From the NCBI GenBank assembly GCA_022813675.1, contig CP063375.1, forward strand, positions 434,001 to 498,000: 64,000 nt of DNA, written 5' to 3'. How positions within the stretch are numbered: position 1 is the stretch's first letter; each line of letters starts with the position of its first letter. The DNA comes from Deferribacteraceae bacterium V6Fe1. GTDB taxonomy: Bacteria > Chrysiogenota > Deferribacteres > Deferribacterales > Deferrivibrionaceae. The position numbers were made by a program, and so were the translations under genes. Shown in pieces: positions 29,374 to 37,048 of the stretch. The notes beneath the pieces were generated by a model. The model did not search any database and was not told where the DNA came from. It saw only the letters and a program-made list of their open reading frames with translations.

Positions 29374-30536
29374 ATTGCTCCCTCCATATTTTCCAAAATA
29401 ATCTCCAAGTCCTTATCCCCTCTTCCTGAAAGATTTATAAGTATAGTTTTATCTTTAAACTTTGATGCATTTTTTATGAAATAGCCAACGGCATGGCTTG
29501 ACTCAAGGGCAGGAAGAATCCCCTCAAGCTTACAAAGCTCTAAGCACCCGTCCAAAGCCTCTTTATCCCTTGCATAGTGATACTCACATCTTTTTATCTC
29601 TTTTAAAAATGAATGCTCCGGTCCAACACCCGCATAATCAAGACCGGCAGACACAGAGTGGACATTGCTAATCTGCCCCGATTTGTCTGTCAAAACATAA
29701 GACAAACTCCCTTGGAATATACCCTTCTTTCCAAAACTCATCCTTGCTGCATGTTCACCATCTTTATCCGAAATTCCGCCCGCTTCGACACCAACAAGTC
29801 TTACACTTTCTACATCTAAAAACCCTTTAAACATCCCTATTGCATTGCTGCCGCCACCGACACAGGCAATAATATAATCAGGCATAATCCCTAAATTTTC
29901 AAAATATTCCCTTGATTCCTTCCCTATCACTGACTGAAAATGAGAAACAATCTTAGGAAACGGATACGGCCCCAATGCTGACCCAAGGACATAATGAGTA
30001 GTATTACAACTTGAAACCCAATCTCTAAGTGCCGCACTTACTGCATCTTTTAAAGTCTTAGTCCCCTCATCCACTACTTTCACTTCCGCGCCAAGCATCT
30101 TCATACGCTTTACATTCATTGACTGCCTTTTTGCATCAATACTTCCCATATAAACTGTGCACTTAAGGTTTAAAAGTGCTGCAACCGTTGCCGTTGCCAC
30201 ACCGTGCTGCCCTGCACCTGTCTCGGCAATTATCCGCTTTTTCCCCATTTTTTTTGCCGACAGTGCCTGCCCTAATGAATTATTAATCTTGTGAGCCCCG
30301 GTATGCAGCAAATCTTCTCTTTTAAAATATACCTTGCACCCATATTTTTTTGACATATTCTCTGCATAATAAATAGGGGTAGGCCTGCCGGCATAGTTTT
30401 TAAGTAAGTCATTCAGCTTATCATTAAAATCTTTATCACATTTAAGTAATTCAAAACTCTTGTCCAACTCATCCAATACCGGAATAAGAGTCTCAGCCAC
30501 AAATTGTCCACCAAATTCACCGTAAAACCCTTTCAT
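29370..30536 (-). CDS. trpB: tryptophan synthase beta chain
   Basis: TrpB joins indole and serine to make tryptophan, using PLP. The 388-residue protein has the PLP lysine in HTGAHKINNSLGQA, then ETGAGQHGVATATVAALL, the glycine-rich CVGGGSNAIGMF, and the C-terminal NLSGRGDKDL. It begins KGFYGEFGGQFVAETL, as expected for the trpB1 class. It overlaps trpF by one base and trpA by four. Confidence 0.97.
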   Translation of the reverse strand: MKGFYGEFGGQFVAETLIPVLDELDKSFELLKCDKDFNDKLNDLLKNYAGRPTPIYYAENMSKKYGCKVYFKREDLLHTGAHKINNSLGQALSAKKMGKKRIIAETGAGQHGVATATVAALLNLKCTVYMGSIDAKRQSMNVKRMKMLGAEVKVVDEGTKTLKDAVSAALRDWVSSCNTTHYVLGSALGPYPFPKIVSHFQSVIGKESREYFENLGIMPDYIIACVGGGSNAIGMFKGFLDVESVRLVGVEAGGISDKDGEHAARMSFGKKGIFQGSLSYVLTDKSGQISNVHSVSAGLDYAGVGPEHSFLKEIKRCEYHYARDKEALDGCLELCKLEGILPALESSHAVGYFIKNASKFKDKTILINLSGRGDKDLEIILENMEGAI

Positions 30537-31075
30537 TATTCACCACCTTTTACCGATTCTATAAACTTTTTCATAAGCTCATAATCCTTTTCCCCCTGTG
30601 CATTTTCCACACCTGAGGATACATCAACTCCAAAAGGTTGATACTGTTTTATTACATTTTTTACATTTTTATAATTAAGCCCACCGGCAATTATTAATTT
30701 ACTTCTGAGCATTTCTAACCACTCAGGAAAACTTTCAAATTCACCGCTGCCTTTACTGTTATCATATAAAAAATACTTAAAGTTATTATCTAAAGGTTTG
30801 GCATTTGACGCAAAAATGAGATTATTTTTATTTATCTGCTCATACACCTGAATATAATCAAAACTATCCTCTACATTTGATACATCTGCATAACTAACAC
30901 TAACGGCAACAGATTTAATCTTACCCCTTGCATATTGAGCAAGTTTTTTTGCTGTATCATCATCGACATATCTTTTGCTCTTTTTATAAAGTACTACCCC
31001 TACAGCAGTATACCCGAGAGACATTGCCCAATCTATATGTTCAAAAGTTTTTATACCACATACTTTTACAAACAT
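30536..31075 (-). CDS. trpF: phosphoribosylanthranilate isomerase
   Basis: TrpF converts phosphoribosylanthranilate to CdRP. The 179-residue protein starts KVCGIKTFEHIDWA with the catalytic Cys and ends with IAGGLNYKNV and GVDVSSGVENAQGEKD, with the second catalytic Asp region. It is shorter than the usual ~200-residue TrpF, but the main motifs are present. It overlaps trpC by ten bases. Confidence 0.92.
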   Translation of the reverse strand: MFVKVCGIKTFEHIDWAMSLGYTAVGVVLYKKSKRYVDDDTAKKLAQYARGKIKSVAVSVSYADVSNVEDSFDYIQVYEQINKNNLIFASNAKPLDNNFKYFLYDNSKGSGEFESFPEWLEMLRSKLIIAGGLNYKNVKNVIKQYQPFGVDVSSGVENAQGEKDYELMKKFIESVKGGE

Positions 31076-31818
31076 TTCAAACTCTCATATATTTCCAAAA
31101 TCTTTTCACCCGGAATTTTTGATTGCATCAAATAAGAGCCTATCAAAAAAGCATTAGCTCCGGCAGCCTTGAACATTAGCACATCCTCTTTACTGCTGAT
31201 TCCGCTCTCAGCTACCTTAAAATAACCTTTACTGAGGCTTGAAATTATCTCTGCACACTTATTTTTATCAATTTTAAGTGTTTCAAGATTTCTTGAATTT
31301 ACTCCCAGAAGGTCAAACTTGGCTTTCTCTGCAATGGTAATCTCCCCCTTTTCATGAATTTCGGTTAGCACATATAGACCAAGGCTTTTTGCATAATTAA
31401 AAAGCTCTACATACTCTTTTTCACTCAGTGCTTTAACTATCAATAGGATAATATCTGCCCCGAGTTTGTAAGCTATATCTATCTGTTTTTTGGAAATTAT
31501 AAAATCCTTGCACAAAACAGGAATCTTCACCTGACAAGCCACCTGTTGCAAATAGGTAAATCCCCCTTTAAAAAACTTTTCATCCGTAAGCACACTTACG
31601 GCACCTGCACCGGCTTTTTCATATATTTTTGCCTGCTCTACAACATTAATATCGGTATTAATGTCTCCAAGACTCGGTGAAGCCTTTTTTACTTCGGCGA
31701 TAATCGGTCTATTTCTCAAAAACTCCAAAGGGGAAAATATCTCTTTTTGCCTCTCAAAAGTTGGCACTTCCAATGTATCTATTTCCAACAGCTTATTTTC
31801 AAGAATCTTCGACAACAT
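31066..31818 (-). CDS. trpC: indole-3-glycerol phosphate synthase
   Basis: TrpC closes the indole ring. The 250-residue protein has the conserved PIIAEVKKASPSLG, VLTDEKFFKGGFTYL, PVLCKDFIISKKQID, and LGVNSRNLETLKID, and a final AESGISSKED. Length is standard for a monofunctional enzyme. It directly follows trpD with no gap. Confidence 0.96.
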   Translation of the reverse strand: MLSKILENKLLEIDTLEVPTFERQKEIFSPLEFLRNRPIIAEVKKASPSLGDINTDINVVEQAKIYEKAGAGAVSVLTDEKFFKGGFTYLQQVACQVKIPVLCKDFIISKKQIDIAYKLGADIILLIVKALSEKEYVELFNYAKSLGLYVLTEIHEKGEITIAEKAKFDLLGVNSRNLETLKIDKNKCAEIISSLSKGYFKVAESGISSKEDVLMFKAAGANAFLIGSYLMQSKIPGEKILEIYESLKCL

Positions 31819-32805
31819 CTAATTACCCCTCAAGCTTTCAAAATATTTTCTGACTTCACCGTTTTTAAGTTTATTTTTTATCCTTTCAAAAATATCATTT
31901 AAATCTTCATTCTCAATAAGTTGAAAAGCATATGCGGTATTTATGGCAATCAGGTTATTTAAGTCTTCATCCCCGCCTTCAATAGCCCTTTTAAAAAGCT
32001 CGGTTGCCTCATCACTGTTTTCAACACGTGGCATGTCAAACGGTTTGAAAAAGTCTTTCGGATTAATTTCCAACTTTTCAATTTTTCCACCTGTTACCTT
32101 TCTAGCAAAAGTTATGTCACAGCTTGAAATCTCATCATAACCGTCTTTTGATGATACCACTAAAATATTATTTCTATTCAATCTTACCAATGCCTTTGCA
32201 TATACATCAAGCTTCGCCACAGAATTTATTCCGATAAGCTGATATTCAGGATCGGCAGGGTTTAGCATCGGGCCTAAGTAGTTAAAAATAGTTGGCACTT
32301 TTAGCTCCCTTCTTATTTTGCCCACTGATTTGAGAATAGGGTGATAATTTGGTGCAAAGAGAAATACAAAATTATGCTTTAGTAAAAATTTCTCTGCTTC
32401 TTCTTTGGTCAGTTTTACCGGGACACCCATCATTTCCAATATGTCTGCCGAGCCAACTTTTCCGCTTTGGGCCACATTTCCATGCTTTACAACATTGAAC
32501 CCAAAACTACCAAGCACTATTGAAACAATCGTGGATACATTTATCGTAGATTTGCCGTCCCCGCCTGTGCCGCAAGTATCTACTTTATTTTTAAGATCCA
32601 CATCCAATTTTATTTTATACCTATTTAATACCGTTGCAGCTGCAGAAATCTCCTCTTCACTCTCCCCTTTTAATCTCAGAGCGATAAGTGCAGAGCCAAT
32701 CTGAGCCTCTGTCAAATTGCCATTCACCATAGAATCAAAAAAATCTACATACTCTGCGAAAGACAATCTTTCATCAGAATTAACCTTTTTAACCAATGTT
32801 TCCAT
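31819..32805 (-). CDS. trpD: anthranilate phosphoribosyltransferase
   Basis: TrpD attaches PRPP-derived ribose to anthranilate. The 328-residue protein has the PRPP-loop CGTGGDGKSTINVST, HGN with the anthranilate site, and the PTIFNYLGPMLNPA strand. GGAGG precedes the ATG at 32805, which overlaps trpG by 17 bases. It is a single-domain TrpD, separate from TrpG. Confidence 0.96.
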   Translation of the reverse strand: METLVKKVNSDERLSFAEYVDFFDSMVNGNLTEAQIGSALIALRLKGESEEEISAAATVLNRYKIKLDVDLKNKVDTCGTGGDGKSTINVSTIVSIVLGSFGFNVVKHGNVAQSGKVGSADILEMMGVPVKLTKEEAEKFLLKHNFVFLFAPNYHPILKSVGKIRRELKVPTIFNYLGPMLNPADPEYQLIGINSVAKLDVYAKALVRLNRNNILVVSSKDGYDEISSCDITFARKVTGGKIEKLEINPKDFFKPFDMPRVENSDEATELFKRAIEGGDEDLNNLIAINTAYAFQLIENEDLNDIFERIKNKLKNGEVRKYFESLRGN

Positions 32806-33361
32806 CTTTACCTCCGCAATAATTTACAAAATTTTCTATTATCTTATCCCCGAATTCGCTTAAAAATGATTCCGGATGATATTGCACCCCAAACAACTTC
32901 TTTTCAGGAATCTCTATGGACATTATTTCGTTATCGGAAATACTTCTTGAAGTAACAAAACTTTCGTCAATATCTATTACAAGGGAGTGATAACGAACAG
33001 CTTTAAATGATTTCGGAACACCTTTATATAAAACTTCATCTTTTATAACTTTTACATCTTCGACTTTTCCATGTTTTATTGTCTGTGCATTTCTTACACG
33101 ATTTCCCAAATAGTAGCCTATCGCCTGCATCCCTAAGCAAACACCAAAAATTGGCAGTTTGCCCGCATATTCGTTCAAATATTTAAGGGTTGTCCCTGAA
33201 TTAGCAGGATTTGAAGGCCCGGGGGAAAGTATTATACCTTTATAATTATCGGCTTTTATAAACTCATCATTTTTAATAACCCTTACTTCCTGCCCGAGCT
33301 GTTTAAACACCGCATAAAGATTGAATGTAAAGGAATCATAATTATCAATTAGTAAAAACAT
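32789..33361 (-). CDS. trpG: anthranilate synthase glutaminase subunit, likely also PabA
   Basis: TrpG supplies ammonia from glutamine to TrpE. The 190-residue class I glutaminase begins LLIDNYDSFTFNLY. The nucleophile Cys lies in FGVCLGMQAIGYYLG (near residue 75), and the His and Glu are in FGVQYHPESF. It overlaps trpE by 17 bases and trpD by 17. Because pabB but no pabA is present in this operon, I infer an amphibolic TrpG that also serves PabB, as known for Bacillus. Confidence 0.95.
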   Translation of the reverse strand: MFLLIDNYDSFTFNLYAVFKQLGQEVRVIKNDEFIKADNYKGIILSPGPSNPANSGTTLKYLNEYAGKLPIFGVCLGMQAIGYYLGNRVRNAQTIKHGKVEDVKVIKDEVLYKGVPKSFKAVRYHSLVIDIDESFVTSRSISDNEIMSIEIPEKKLFGVQYHPESFLSEFGDKIIENFVNYCGGKDGNIG

Positions 33362-34814
33362 TGTATCTCTCCATATTTTTTATTCTTTCAAGAGCATTGA
33401 AAAGTGCTTTTAATTTTTCCTGAACCTCTTTGTATTCTTTTTCCGGAATACTGTCGTGGACAATCCCAGCACCTGCTCTGAAAACAGTTTTACTACCAGT
33501 TACCTTTGCACTTCTGATTGTAATACAGGTATCCATGTTACCGCTGTATGAAAAATACCCAGTGCAACCTGCATAAAATCCTCGGGGGCTTTTTTCGTAA
33601 CTGTCAATAAGTTCCATTGCTCTTACCTTTGGTGCACCAGTTACGGTGCCGGCTGGGAATGTGTTCATAAAAAGCTCAATATTTGAAGAATTTTCATTAA
33701 GTTCACCTACCACTTCCGAAACGATATGAATTACATGGGAATAAACTTCAGGCACAAACGATTTGCCCACCTTCACACTTTCAGGTTTGCAGCAGGTATA
33801 TAAATCGTTTCTTGCCAAATCCAAAAGCATCAGGTGCTCAGCTCTCTCCTTTTCATCATTCAAAAGCGATGCTTTTATCTCATCAAGATTTTCCCCCACA
33901 GGATAAGTGCCGGCAATCGGTTTTAATGTTGCAATTCTGTCCTTTACTTTAAGGTGAATCTCAGGGGAGGAGCCACATACCACTTCACCGTTAAATTTCA
34001 AATAAAACATATAAGGTGATGGATTTAAATTTCTAAGAGCTCTGTAGAGACTTAACGGATTTATTTTTGAGTTTATTTCGTATTTGTTTGAAATAACGCA
34101 TTGTATAACCTCACCATCATAAATATCTTTTTTCAACCGCTCTACAGTTTCAACAAATTCACTTTCTTCGTATTCATTGACAATTTCAAAAGTTTCATCC
34201 GTTTCAAAATTGTCAAAATTGAGCCCGTGCAGCTTTTCTGCCATTTTCAGAGTTGCTTTTTTTGCCTTTTCGTAAGCCTGCTCTACGTCCCCTTTACAGT
34301 CAACGGACACGCACGAATACATCTTACCCAAGTGGTTGTCAAAAATGTAAAACTCATCAACAAGCATTAATTGCATTAGATTTTCATGACTTGGCTCTTT
34401 TATCCTGTTTCTTAAAACACCCATATAATTAATCATTTCATAACCGATGTAACCCACATAGCCACCGGTAAAATCACCGAAGTTGTCATAATATCTTCCA
34501 TTAAAGGTTTTGATATTGTTATTAAGATAATCCATAGGATTAATATCTATCTCTGTCTTTTTACCATTCTTTACGGAATAAAGTTTTCTGTTTTTAAAGG
34601 TCAATACCTCTTTGGGCTTAAAGCCAAAAAATGAAAACCTTGAAAAGGTCTTATCCAGGTTTGCGCTCTCAAGCATAAAAAGGTTATCCTCACTTGAAAA
34701 ATTTCTTAAAAGTGCAATCGGCGTAAATGTATCCCCCACAATCTCCCTGTAGACAGGCACCCTGTCATACTTTTTAAAATCTTCTTTAAATGTTTCAAAA
34801 TCCGGAAAAAGCAT
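33345..34814 (-). CDS. trpE: anthranilate synthase component I
   Basis: TrpE makes anthranilate from chorismate. The 489-residue protein has the Trp-feedback motif LES at residues 48-50 (NLFMLESANLD), so feedback inhibition is likely retained. The chorismate core holds LRNLNPSPYMFYLKF, PIAGTYPVG, NDLYTCCKPESV and FPAGTVTGAPKVRAMELID. AGGAGG lies seven bases before the ATG at 34814. It is the first enzyme gene after the leader and both of the tandem terminators. Confidence 0.97.
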   Translation of the reverse strand: MLFPDFETFKEDFKKYDRVPVYREIVGDTFTPIALLRNFSSEDNLFMLESANLDKTFSRFSFFGFKPKEVLTFKNRKLYSVKNGKKTEIDINPMDYLNNNIKTFNGRYYDNFGDFTGGYVGYIGYEMINYMGVLRNRIKEPSHENLMQLMLVDEFYIFDNHLGKMYSCVSVDCKGDVEQAYEKAKKATLKMAEKLHGLNFDNFETDETFEIVNEYEESEFVETVERLKKDIYDGEVIQCVISNKYEINSKINPLSLYRALRNLNPSPYMFYLKFNGEVVCGSSPEIHLKVKDRIATLKPIAGTYPVGENLDEIKASLLNDEKERAEHLMLLDLARNDLYTCCKPESVKVGKSFVPEVYSHVIHIVSEVVGELNENSSNIELFMNTFPAGTVTGAPKVRAMELIDSYEKSPRGFYAGCTGYFSYSGNMDTCITIRSAKVTGSKTVFRAGAGIVHDSIPEKEYKEVQEKLKALFNALERIKNMERYNVFTN

Positions 34815-34835
34815 TTTATATCCTCCTTTTGGTAT

Positions 34836-34868
34836 AAAAAAAGGCCGCGAGTTTTATCCCACGGCCTT
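34836..34868 (-). terminator. trp terminator 2 (segments 5 and 6)
   Basis: AAGGCCGTG (34868-34860) pairs with CGCGGCCTT (34849-34841), nine pairs with one wobble, loop of ten, then seven Ts. It lies just before the trpE ribosome site. Its 5' arm is also a perfect complement to the 3' arm of terminator 1. Confidence 0.88.
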
Positions 34869-34891
34869 AGAATATAACAGAAAAGGCCGTG
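34860..34891 (-). promoter_or_regulatory. second antiterminator (segments 4 and 5) of the trp leader
   Basis: CACGGCCTT (34891-34883), the 3' arm of terminator 1, is complementary base for base to AAGGCCGTG (34868-34860), the 5' arm of terminator 2. Forming this nine-base-pair helix (14-base loop) would undo both terminators at once. It can form only when segment 3 has been taken by segment 2. Confidence 0.7.
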
Positions 34892-34911
34892 TGGTTGCTC
34901 ACCACACGGCC
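34881..34911 (-). terminator. trp attenuator terminator 1 (segments 3 and 4)
   Basis: GGCCGTGTGGT and ACCACACGGCC form an 11-base-pair stem with a five-base loop, followed by TTTTCT. The central part of the stem is shared with the antiterminator, so the structure is exclusive with it. Confidence 0.92.
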
Positions 34912-34941
34912 CTTATAGACATAGTTTTATGGTGAACAACC
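34893..34941 (-). promoter_or_regulatory. trp antiterminator (segments 2 and 3)
   Basis: GGTTGTTCACC (34941-34931) pairs with GGTGAGCAACC (34903-34893): 11 pairs with one wobble, extendable to 14. Segment 2 also pairs with segment 1 (TGGTG/CACCA and AACAA/TTGTT), which includes the Trp codons. A ribosome stalled at those codons would free segment 2. Confidence 0.85.
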
Positions 34942-35003
34942 TAACTTATTGTTACTGTCCACCACCAAGCTGTTAAATTTAAGTTCACTCTGTAATCTCT
35001 CAT
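34941..35003 (-). CDS. trpL: trp leader peptide with three tandem Trp codons
   Basis: The minus strand reads a 20-codon ORF from ATG at 35003 to TAG at 34943-34941. Residues 13-15 are three consecutive Trp (TGG TGG TGG at 34967-34959). Charged tRNA-Trp would let the ribosome run to the stop codon, which abuts segment 2 of the attenuator; starvation would stall it on segment 1. There is no Shine-Dalgarno site. The predicted transcription start is only a few bases before the ATG, so translation may be leaderless. The peptide itself needs no function; its codons sense tryptophan. Confidence 0.88.
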   Translation of the reverse strand: MRDYRVNLNLTAWWWTVTIS

Positions 35004-35011
35004 ATCATCGG

Positions 35012-35040
35012 TGTATACATCAACTACTTTAATTTGTAAA
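35012..35040 (-). promoter_or_regulatory. promoter of the trp-pab operon
   Basis: TTTACA and TATACA on the minus strand are exactly 17 bases apart, between the chemoreceptor stop (35048) and trpL. Predicted transcription starts about two to four bases before the trpL ATG. Confidence 0.68.
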
Positions 35041-35047
35041 GCATTTT

Positions 35048-37048
35048 TTAACACTCTTTCAATTTAAATTTTGATACTATCTCTCTTAGCTCTTCAGCCA
35101 ACCCCTTTAATCTTTCTGCCTGATTATGATTTTCCACTGCTATTGAAGAGTTTTCCTGTGATATGGCAGCAATATCAGCCATATTGTTAGAAATCTCCTG
35201 ACTTGTTGCACTCTGCTGGTCAACTGCGGTAGCCACAGCCGTAATCTTATCTGCTATTTCAACTACCCCATCAATTATCTCGCTGAGGCTTATCTTGAGG
35301 TTACCTACCATCATACTACCCTCTTCAGCAAGCTTCACCCCTTTATCCATATCATTTACAGAAGTCTCCACCTCTTTTTGGATATTGTTTATCATATTGT
35401 CAATCTCTCCCGTTGCTTTTACAGTCCTTTCGGCAAGTTTTCTAACCTCATCGGCTACCACAGCAAAACCTCTGCCGTGCTCCCCCGCTCTTGCAGCTTC
35501 TATCGCAGCATTTAAGGCTAAAAGGTTTGTCTGGTCTGCAATCTCGGAAATTACGCTCAAAATTTCACCTATCTGCTCAGAAGATTTACCAAGTTGCTTG
35601 ATACTTTGCCCCGTACTGATTACTGAGCCTGAAAGCGTATTGATACTGTCAACAGTATCATCCAAAATCTTTCTACCTGTGTCTGCGGATTCCCTCACCG
35701 AATTAATTTCATTTGTAATCTGCTCGATATTTTGAGAAATCTCCTGAATGGTAGCAGTCATCTCATGAACAGCCACTTCCACCTGAGAAACTCTTTCTGC
35801 CTGACTTTCGGCACCTTGACTCATTTCATCACTTGAAACAGCCAAAGCCTCTGCAGAGCTTGTGACATCAATGGTAGCTCGGCTGACACCACATAATGCA
35901 CTATTCATCTGCTCCACCATTTTATTGACATTTTCTATAATAAGACCAATCTCATCTCTACTTTTTACGGCAAGAGTATTGGTCAAATCCCCTTCTGATA
36001 TTTCAGAGAAAAGTCTTTGTAGCTCATCTATCGGGTTTAATACATTTGCCTTAAAAATAATCCTTAATAAAACCAAAAATACCACAATAACCGCAAGGCT
36101 TGACAGTAGCATGATGGATCTTATTGCAGTAACGGTACCGCCTATAAACTCATCTTCATATGAGCCGCCCGCAATAATCCAATCTTTCGGTGCATAATAA
36201 GTGTAAGCTACAATTTTGTATTTCCCCTCCCATTTATACCTTACAACTCCGTTCTTATTTTTAACCATCTCTTTTGCAAAATCATACTTTAGTATACTTG
36301 TGCCTTCATATTTTTTACTGGGGTGAACTTCCAATACCCCATTAGAGTTCATAACGTAAAAATAACCTGTCTTCCCTATCTTTGTGGTCTTAATTGTCTC
36401 TTTTATATTATCAAGCATTTTAGCCTGAAGCACTCTTGAACCAGATAAAAGTTCATCTTCAGGGATAGCTACTACTACCACCCAATTCATTTGGATAAAA
36501 TATCTATAGGCTGCGTATATTTTCTGTTTCCCTTTATCTGTATCGATTTCGTAAGTGATTGTCCCGTTCATCTCGTCAATCATCTGCTTTATATAATCAC
36601 CGCTATCTTTCATACTTTTAGAATAAGGTGGTTTTACCGCATAACTGCCGTCATCAACTTTTAATGCATAAGCAAAACCAGTCTTTAAAACTTTTTTCTT
36701 TAAGATAATATTTGCCATTCTAAAAGAGAGTGTGGACTGGTCTTCCCCTTGAGCTGCGTAAAGAGAATACATATTCATTAAGGTCTCAGAAAAACTATTA
36801 GCTTCATTTTCAAGCATCTGAAATCCGTCTTTTACTCCGTTTTCAGCAACCAAATCGGCAGTTTTTATTGTCCCTTCCAAAGACTTTTTAAAAGTGTCAA
36901 CCTCTGCCATAATCTGTTTGGCAATCTCTTGGGAAAATTTTTTCTTTGCTTGGCTTATGATGGCTAAACTTATTACCAAAAAACTTAAAATAAGAATCAT
37001 ACTAACGGAAAGAAGTATTTTTGTCCTGATTTTCATATTTGAAAACAT
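35048..37048 (-). CDS. methyl-accepting chemotaxis protein
   Basis: This is a transmembrane chemoreceptor of 666 residues counted from the ATG at 37048 (GGAG six bases upstream; the earlier TTG start contains that site). It has a membrane helix at ~7-30, a periplasmic Cache-type sensor domain (to ~300) with [11 protein letters not shown] and [12 protein letters not shown], a second membrane helix (~310-330), a HAMP domain, and a signalling domain with the hairpin tip [20 protein letters not shown] followed by [18 protein letters not shown]. The ligand is unknown, and no che genes are nearby. It ends LKEC, without a pentapeptide for CheR binding. Confidence 0.93.

Follow-up and report, generated by a model that had tools for sequence, protein, structure and literature searches.

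A trp leader of Deferribacteraceae bacterium V6Fe1 with two terminators probably joined by a relay helix that is conserved in relatives

The window analyzed here, a stretch of 64,000 nucleotides of Deferribacteraceae bacterium V6Fe1, covers positions 434001-498000 of a 2.36-Mb genome. On its minus strand, a methyl-accepting chemotaxis gene with its stop at 35048 and trpE, which starts at 34814, flank a trp leader, which comprises, together with the genes that follow it, the features below.

35012..35040, minus strand: predicted promoter, with the -35 box TTTACA at 35040-35035, a 17-bp spacer and the -10 box TATACA at 35017-35012
34941..35003, minus strand: trpL leader peptide MRDYRVNLNLTAWWWTVTIS, ATG at 35003, 20 codons, stop codon TAG at 34943-34941
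34967-34959, minus strand: Trp codons (WWW) of trpL
34955..34965, minus strand: segment 1, overlapping the Trp codons and pairing with segment 2, the structure predicted without a ribosome
34928..34941, minus strand: segment 2, whose partner is segment 1 or the upper part of segment 3
34901..34914, minus strand: segment 3, the 5' arm of terminator 1
34906-34893, minus strand: antiterminator partner of segment 2
34882..34895, minus strand: segment 4, the 3' arm of terminator 1, core CACGGCCTT at 34891-34883
34858..34868, minus strand: segment 5, the 5' arm of terminator 2, core AAGGCCGTG at 34868-34860
34841..34851, minus strand: segment 6, the 3' arm of terminator 2
34834..34840, minus strand: U tract of terminator 2, TTTTTAT right behind a stem with a terminal TT
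34822..34827, minus strand: ribosome-binding site of trpE, AGGAGG, by direct reading
33345..34814, minus strand: trpE (anthranilate synthase component I), an open reading frame matching TIGR00564 at 3.5e-130, first gene of trpEGDCF
32789-33361 and 31819-32805, downstream of trpE: trpG and trpD, identities by inspection
31066-31818 and 30536-31075, downstream of trpE: trpC and trpF, identities by inspection

Segments 1 and 2 pair with an energy of -15.8 kcal/mol, and the 2:3 hairpin, in which 14 outer pairs join 34941-34928 with 34906-34893, reaches -23.3 kcal/mol. Terminator 1 (34914-34882) has 14 bp and an energy of -25.9 kcal/mol with its flanks, while terminator 2 (34868-34841) has 11 bp and an energy of -18.6 kcal/mol and has a T run behind it. 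Terminator 1 has an imperfect U tract in the window (TTTTCTGTTAT) and a better one in most relatives. The cores of segments 4 and 5 are exact complements over 9 bp, giving a 4:5 hairpin of -17.6 kcal/mol. An original prediction for this locus had listed these elements with their positions, and all of them were found in place on the minus strand; its claim that the 3' arm of terminator 1 exactly complements the 5' arm of terminator 2 was confirmed by the 9-bp match.

Leaders were then collected from 46 genomes of the order Deferribacterales by means of TrpE-anchored loci and a covariance model, which recovered the same loci as the TrpE-anchored approach. Six families and nine genera were represented among the 23 leaders that this yielded upstream of trpE, and every leader harbored both terminators and a Trp-run peptide (WWW or WWWW). 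A degenerate WWW pattern searched across the order matched mainly in other sequence. Like the classical trp attenuator of the E. coli trpL type, the V6Fe1 leader carries tandem Trp codons in a short leader peptide (WWW in 23/23 leaders of the order), mutually exclusive 1:2, 2:3 and 3:4 pairings and a terminator before trpE, a tryptophan biosynthetic gene. The Trp codons fall in segment 1, and the stop codon (34943-34941) lies at the start of segment 2, before segment 3. To this design the V6Fe1 leader adds a second terminator, the coupling helix 4:5 and a leader peptide predicted to be leaderless. No Rfam family matched within the window at the gathering score, a sequence-family criterion of which the working principle is independent.

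The prediction for the leader peptide comes from the promoters. In all 22 leaders of the order with upstream sequence, L023 being counted through its second-ranked promoter, the end of the -10 box lies only 5 to 8 nt from the ATG, and several leaders of other lineages have a similar spacing; no clear Shine-Dalgarno sequence for trpL was found in the leaders with this 5- to 8-nt spacing. Because of this short distance, trpL appears to be leaderless or nearly so. A leaderless leader peptide in a trp attenuator is known from Sinorhizobium meliloti trpL (PMC7298713), for which a single terminator is described, whereas the V6Fe1 leader has two.

The leader is probably a ribosome-controlled transcription attenuator in which two intrinsic terminators are joined by the relay helix 4:5. 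With plentiful charged tRNA-Trp, the ribosome would proceed to the stop codon and mask segment 2, whereupon 3:4 (terminator 1) would fold and consume segment 4, and 5:6 (terminator 2) would fold as well. Since a polymerase escaping terminator 1 would meet terminator 2, multiplying two leak rates would roughly give the basal expression. A ribosome stalled on the Trp codons would let 2:3 form and leave segment 4 single-stranded, and the emerging segment 5 would then pair with segment 4 ahead of the synthesis of segment 6, so that terminator 2 would be blocked and transcription would continue into trpE. By geometry, the lower arms of segments 3 and 4 should be unable to pair once 2:3 is complete, because the middle of segment 3 is buried and there is no spanning linker, and segment 4 should therefore be available when segment 5 emerges. 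We infer that the two hairpins act as terminators in vivo, that the switch is triggered by stalling at the Trp codons and that 4:5 lasts long enough to defeat terminator 2.

The pairing of segments 4 and 5 was examined on an alignment built with MAFFT without structure (A1). On it, 98.7% of the 4:5 cells were paired, with 9 double-sided changes and none of 500 shuffles as high on the covariation score, whereas the sham helix 3:6 had 87.6% of its cells paired and 2 double-sided changes, and 308 of 500 shuffles reached its level of paired cells; kinship among the sequences means that such covariation counts are not probabilities, yet 3:6 has the same shared history. With hand-anchored 9-mers from 15 distinct leaders, genus g6 being left out, 4:5 was paired at 97.8% (11 double changes), 5:6 at 99.3% (10), 3:4 at 93.3% (10) and 3:6 at 88.1% (3). 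When segment 5 was permuted among the nine genera, the observed fit was matched in only 6 of 362,880 permutations.

Segments 4 and 5 change together, reading GGCC/GGCC in most leaders, GGCU/AGCC in family f2, CAGCC/GGCUG in g16 and GGGCC/GGCCC in f5. In several genomes, segment 5 is Watson-Crick paired with segment 4 but forms a wobble or a mismatch with segment 6, and compensatory changes favoring 4:5 over 5:6 were found in L008 (segment 4 CACGGCTTC, segment 5 GAAGCCGTG, with segment 6 retaining T as a wobble), in L015 (segment 4 CACGGCCCT, segment 5 AGGGCCGTG, with segment 6 retaining CACGGCCTT) and in L014 and L018 (segment 4 CACAGCC, segment 5 GGCTGTG, with segment 6 retaining G at that site). 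The opposite pattern, in which segment 5 tracks segment 6 over segment 4, also occurs, in g10 and L024, as expected if both 4:5 and 5:6 are under selection. The segments, their conservation and, as judged from the sequences, selection on 4:5 were thereby demonstrated by computation. The compensatory conservation of 4:5 in relatives supports the chain switch put forward in the original prediction, namely, 2:3 with 4:5 against 3:4 with 5:6, and the relay itself, in which 2:3 would free segment 4 and 4:5 would disable terminator 2, is well supported by comparison.

Loss of 4:5 in relatives that keep both terminators would have spoken against such a switch; 4:5 was found to be kept generally, the exception being g6 (L010, L012 and L021), where both terminators are present but 4:5 is weak and G.U-rich, at -6.5 to -10.6 kcal/mol by free folding. 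In these three genomes terminator 2 has been replaced by a stronger hairpin of different sequence, with a 5:6 energy of about -28 to -32 kcal/mol, and the relay may therefore be lost in g6. In L010 and L012, several hundred bases of repeat-like sequence separate terminator 2 from trpE.

A covariance model search of 385 genomes of the domain returned 21 further leaders of the same layout in five other lineages, the strong-scoring ones being L066, L067, L068, L172-L174 (order of G095), L070 and those of a small class around G218, of whose 9 genomes 8 match. The genes 3' of these leaders are trpE, a gene for a LivH-like permease and an aromatic-pathway gene, whose product, by inspection of the protein start, is of the aldolase type, such as ADH synthase. 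To compare 4:5 with 3:6, the register was chosen symmetrically from the similarity of segment 3 to 5 and of segment 4 to 6. Over the 44 leaders, 4:5 was better in 40, tied in 4 and worse in none, and it was better in 21 of the 23 leaders of the order and in 19 of the 21 others. In the other lineages, 4:5 was paired in 189/189 cells and surpassed 5:6 in 16/21 leaders, a set that was found by a model of the order leaders and is hence biased to similar arms, but not to 4:5 over 3:6 or 5:6. The stability of 4:5 equals or exceeds that of 5:6 in L070, L071, L076 (-19.1 versus -12.4 kcal/mol), L077, L087 and L159, which would make the relay easier there.

Among 69 regions upstream of trpE outside the order, few WW leaders were seen. 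WW trp leaders with one terminator do exist outside the order (L079, L108, L121 and L096), indicating several designs, of which the double form is one. One class holds both kinds in two genomes, a double-terminator trp leader in G285 (L066) and a WWW leader with one terminator in G147 (L079), and this close pair would lend itself to studying the gain or loss of the second terminator.

Leader peptides with aromatic runs, e.g., WFWFYYWW, precede the ADH-synthase-like gene in L164, L165, L166 and L085. In L164 and L166, 4:5 is perfect but no proper U tract follows the first hairpin, and the second hairpin may thus be reached through the relay alone.

Within the order, energies ranged from about -13 to -28 kcal/mol for 2:3, from -19 to -30 for 3:4, from -12.5 to -20.9 for 4:5 (20 leaders) and from -12.8 to -32 for 5:6. 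Since 5:6 exceeds 4:5 in stability in most of these leaders, the relay has to work through kinetics: the antiterminator helices, mostly the weaker ones here as in the classical attenuator, would have to prevail over the terminators by forming first. A crude co-transcriptional simulation with few states was run on 20 leaders, and its noise is apparent from L001 and L002, which differ in the stop state despite an identical terminator 2. In the stalled state, 4:5 formed before segment 6 in 19/20 leaders, which lends weak support to the relay, and with the ribosome at the stop codon it was absent in 15/20. Terminator 2 was at or below 0.5 after 0.1 s, and hence delayed beyond that time, in just 9/20 stalled leaders. 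The outcome of this simulation, which is too coarse to decide the kinetics, was therefore mixed.

Several other readings were weighed against the relay. It is highly improbable that the arrangement is a coincidence or an artifact, with one or both hairpins not terminating and the complementarity accidental, even though terminator 1 has an imperfect U tract in the window and none in certain leaders from the other lineages (L166, L164 and L170). The layout is kept in all 23 leaders of the order and recurs in five other lineages, and in the source genome random terminator pairs reached the 4:5 duplex energy in only 0.11% of 20,000 draws; an accidental 4:5 complementarity is unlikely. In 444 kb of this genome, a scan gave 60 terminators and a single tandem pair, the trp leader, and only one match to the pattern AAGGCCGTG-N3..20-CGGCCTT is present in the whole 2.36 Mb, so that the shared arm is not a terminator sequence favored genome-wide, an explanation that was ruled out on these grounds. 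Tandem terminators are a common means of tightening termination, and terminator 2 could be a plain back-up duplicate of terminator 1, with 4:5 a by-product of shared arm sequence. Arms 3 and 5 and arms 4 and 6 are indeed alike in most leaders, and the different sequence of terminator 2 in g6 would also fit a simple back-up. If terminator 2 were a mere copy, however, 3:6 should pair as well as 4:5, while 3:6 fell behind in 40 of 44 leaders, led in none and shows no covariation, and segment 5 tracks segment 4 rather than segment 6 at several sites. Moreover, a second terminator that could not be switched would limit derepression during starvation, and we regard duplication as unlikely.

It also seems rather unlikely that 4:5 is real and selected but serves another role, such as the stability of the read-through mRNA or access to the trpE ribosome-binding site, with a modest effect on terminator 2. 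Such a role would fit the thermodynamic preference for 5:6 over 4:5 in most leaders of the order, the quick displacement of 4:5 by 5:6 in about half of the simulations and the location of terminator 2 at most 20 nt from the trpE ribosome-binding site. On the other hand, 4:5 excludes both 3:4 and 5:6 and requires both to be open, and must therefore affect termination, and its stability equals or exceeds that of 5:6 in several lineages.

A precedent for a single leader peptide followed by two serial intrinsic terminators is erm(K), for which PMC4335068, citing Kwak et al. 1991, states two adjacent Rho-independent terminators. As far as that statement goes, ermK of Bacillus licheniformis resembles the trp leader in that ribosome stalling on a leader peptide controls both terminators, but it senses a macrolide rather than an amino acid and precedes an unrelated gene. 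With a Trp-codon peptide before trpE instead of a macrolide-arrested peptide before a 23S rRNA methylase gene, the trp leader is not a member of the ermK type, although by analogy it may work similarly. Attenuators in series in one leader are also mentioned for Salmonella mgtCBR in PMC3641672, but two short reading frames are involved there, whereas in the trp leader one ribosome would set both terminators. In the rimP-leader of some Gammaproteobacteria, a second terminator stands in tandem with a potential antiterminator (PMC2965389), but rimP differs in gene and trigger and has no Trp-rich peptide. A link between the 3' arm of terminator 1 and the 5' arm of terminator 2, with compensatory change, characterizes the leaders described here and is weak in g6. 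No paper on linked, double or tandem terminator pairs in trp leaders was found in the literature searched, outside which most subscription literature fell. The original prediction did not recognize the linked pair among known systems, but with the two adjacent terminators of ermK the idea is not entirely new.

We regard the trp leader as a variant of ribosome-mediated attenuation of which we found no description in the literature searched, the ermK precedent for two adjacent terminators notwithstanding. Its cross-pairing, kept in relatives and in several distant lineages, suggests a shared and little described regulatory design. We lean slightly toward the broader view that relay attenuators form a widespread, undescribed class, in which one stalled ribosome would signal via 2:3 and then 4:5, and which would have been reused in several lineages for trpE, an aromatic-pathway gene and a branched-chain-type permease. 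Were this so, the position of the ribosome would be sampled at two points and two leak rates multiplied, and in the aromatic leaders L166, L164 and L170, with no U tract on the first hairpin, the relay alone would connect the ribosome to the terminator. Textbooks present attenuation as a single switch, and a conserved two-step version would show how a leader RNA could reach very low basal expression yet full induction. Such a version also suggests that the position of the ribosome can be relayed beyond the first decision point through strand exchange, and it offers a compact, testable system for co-transcriptional strand displacement. The same layout may precede other amino-acid genes whose downstream hairpin was taken as a mere back-up terminator.

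Some leaders carry additional elements. Two g10 genomes (L016 and L017) have a GC-rich, repeat-like insert of about 100 bases between terminator 2 and trpE, and in L020 an extra hairpin, ACGGGGTCTGAGAACCCCGGT, lies between terminators 1 and 2, within the loop of an 11-bp 4:5 helix. In L077 and L170, a WWW leader peptide and the double hairpin precede the LivH-like, branched-chain-type permease gene, which suggests that this permease transports tryptophan or aromatic compounds and is controlled in the same way.
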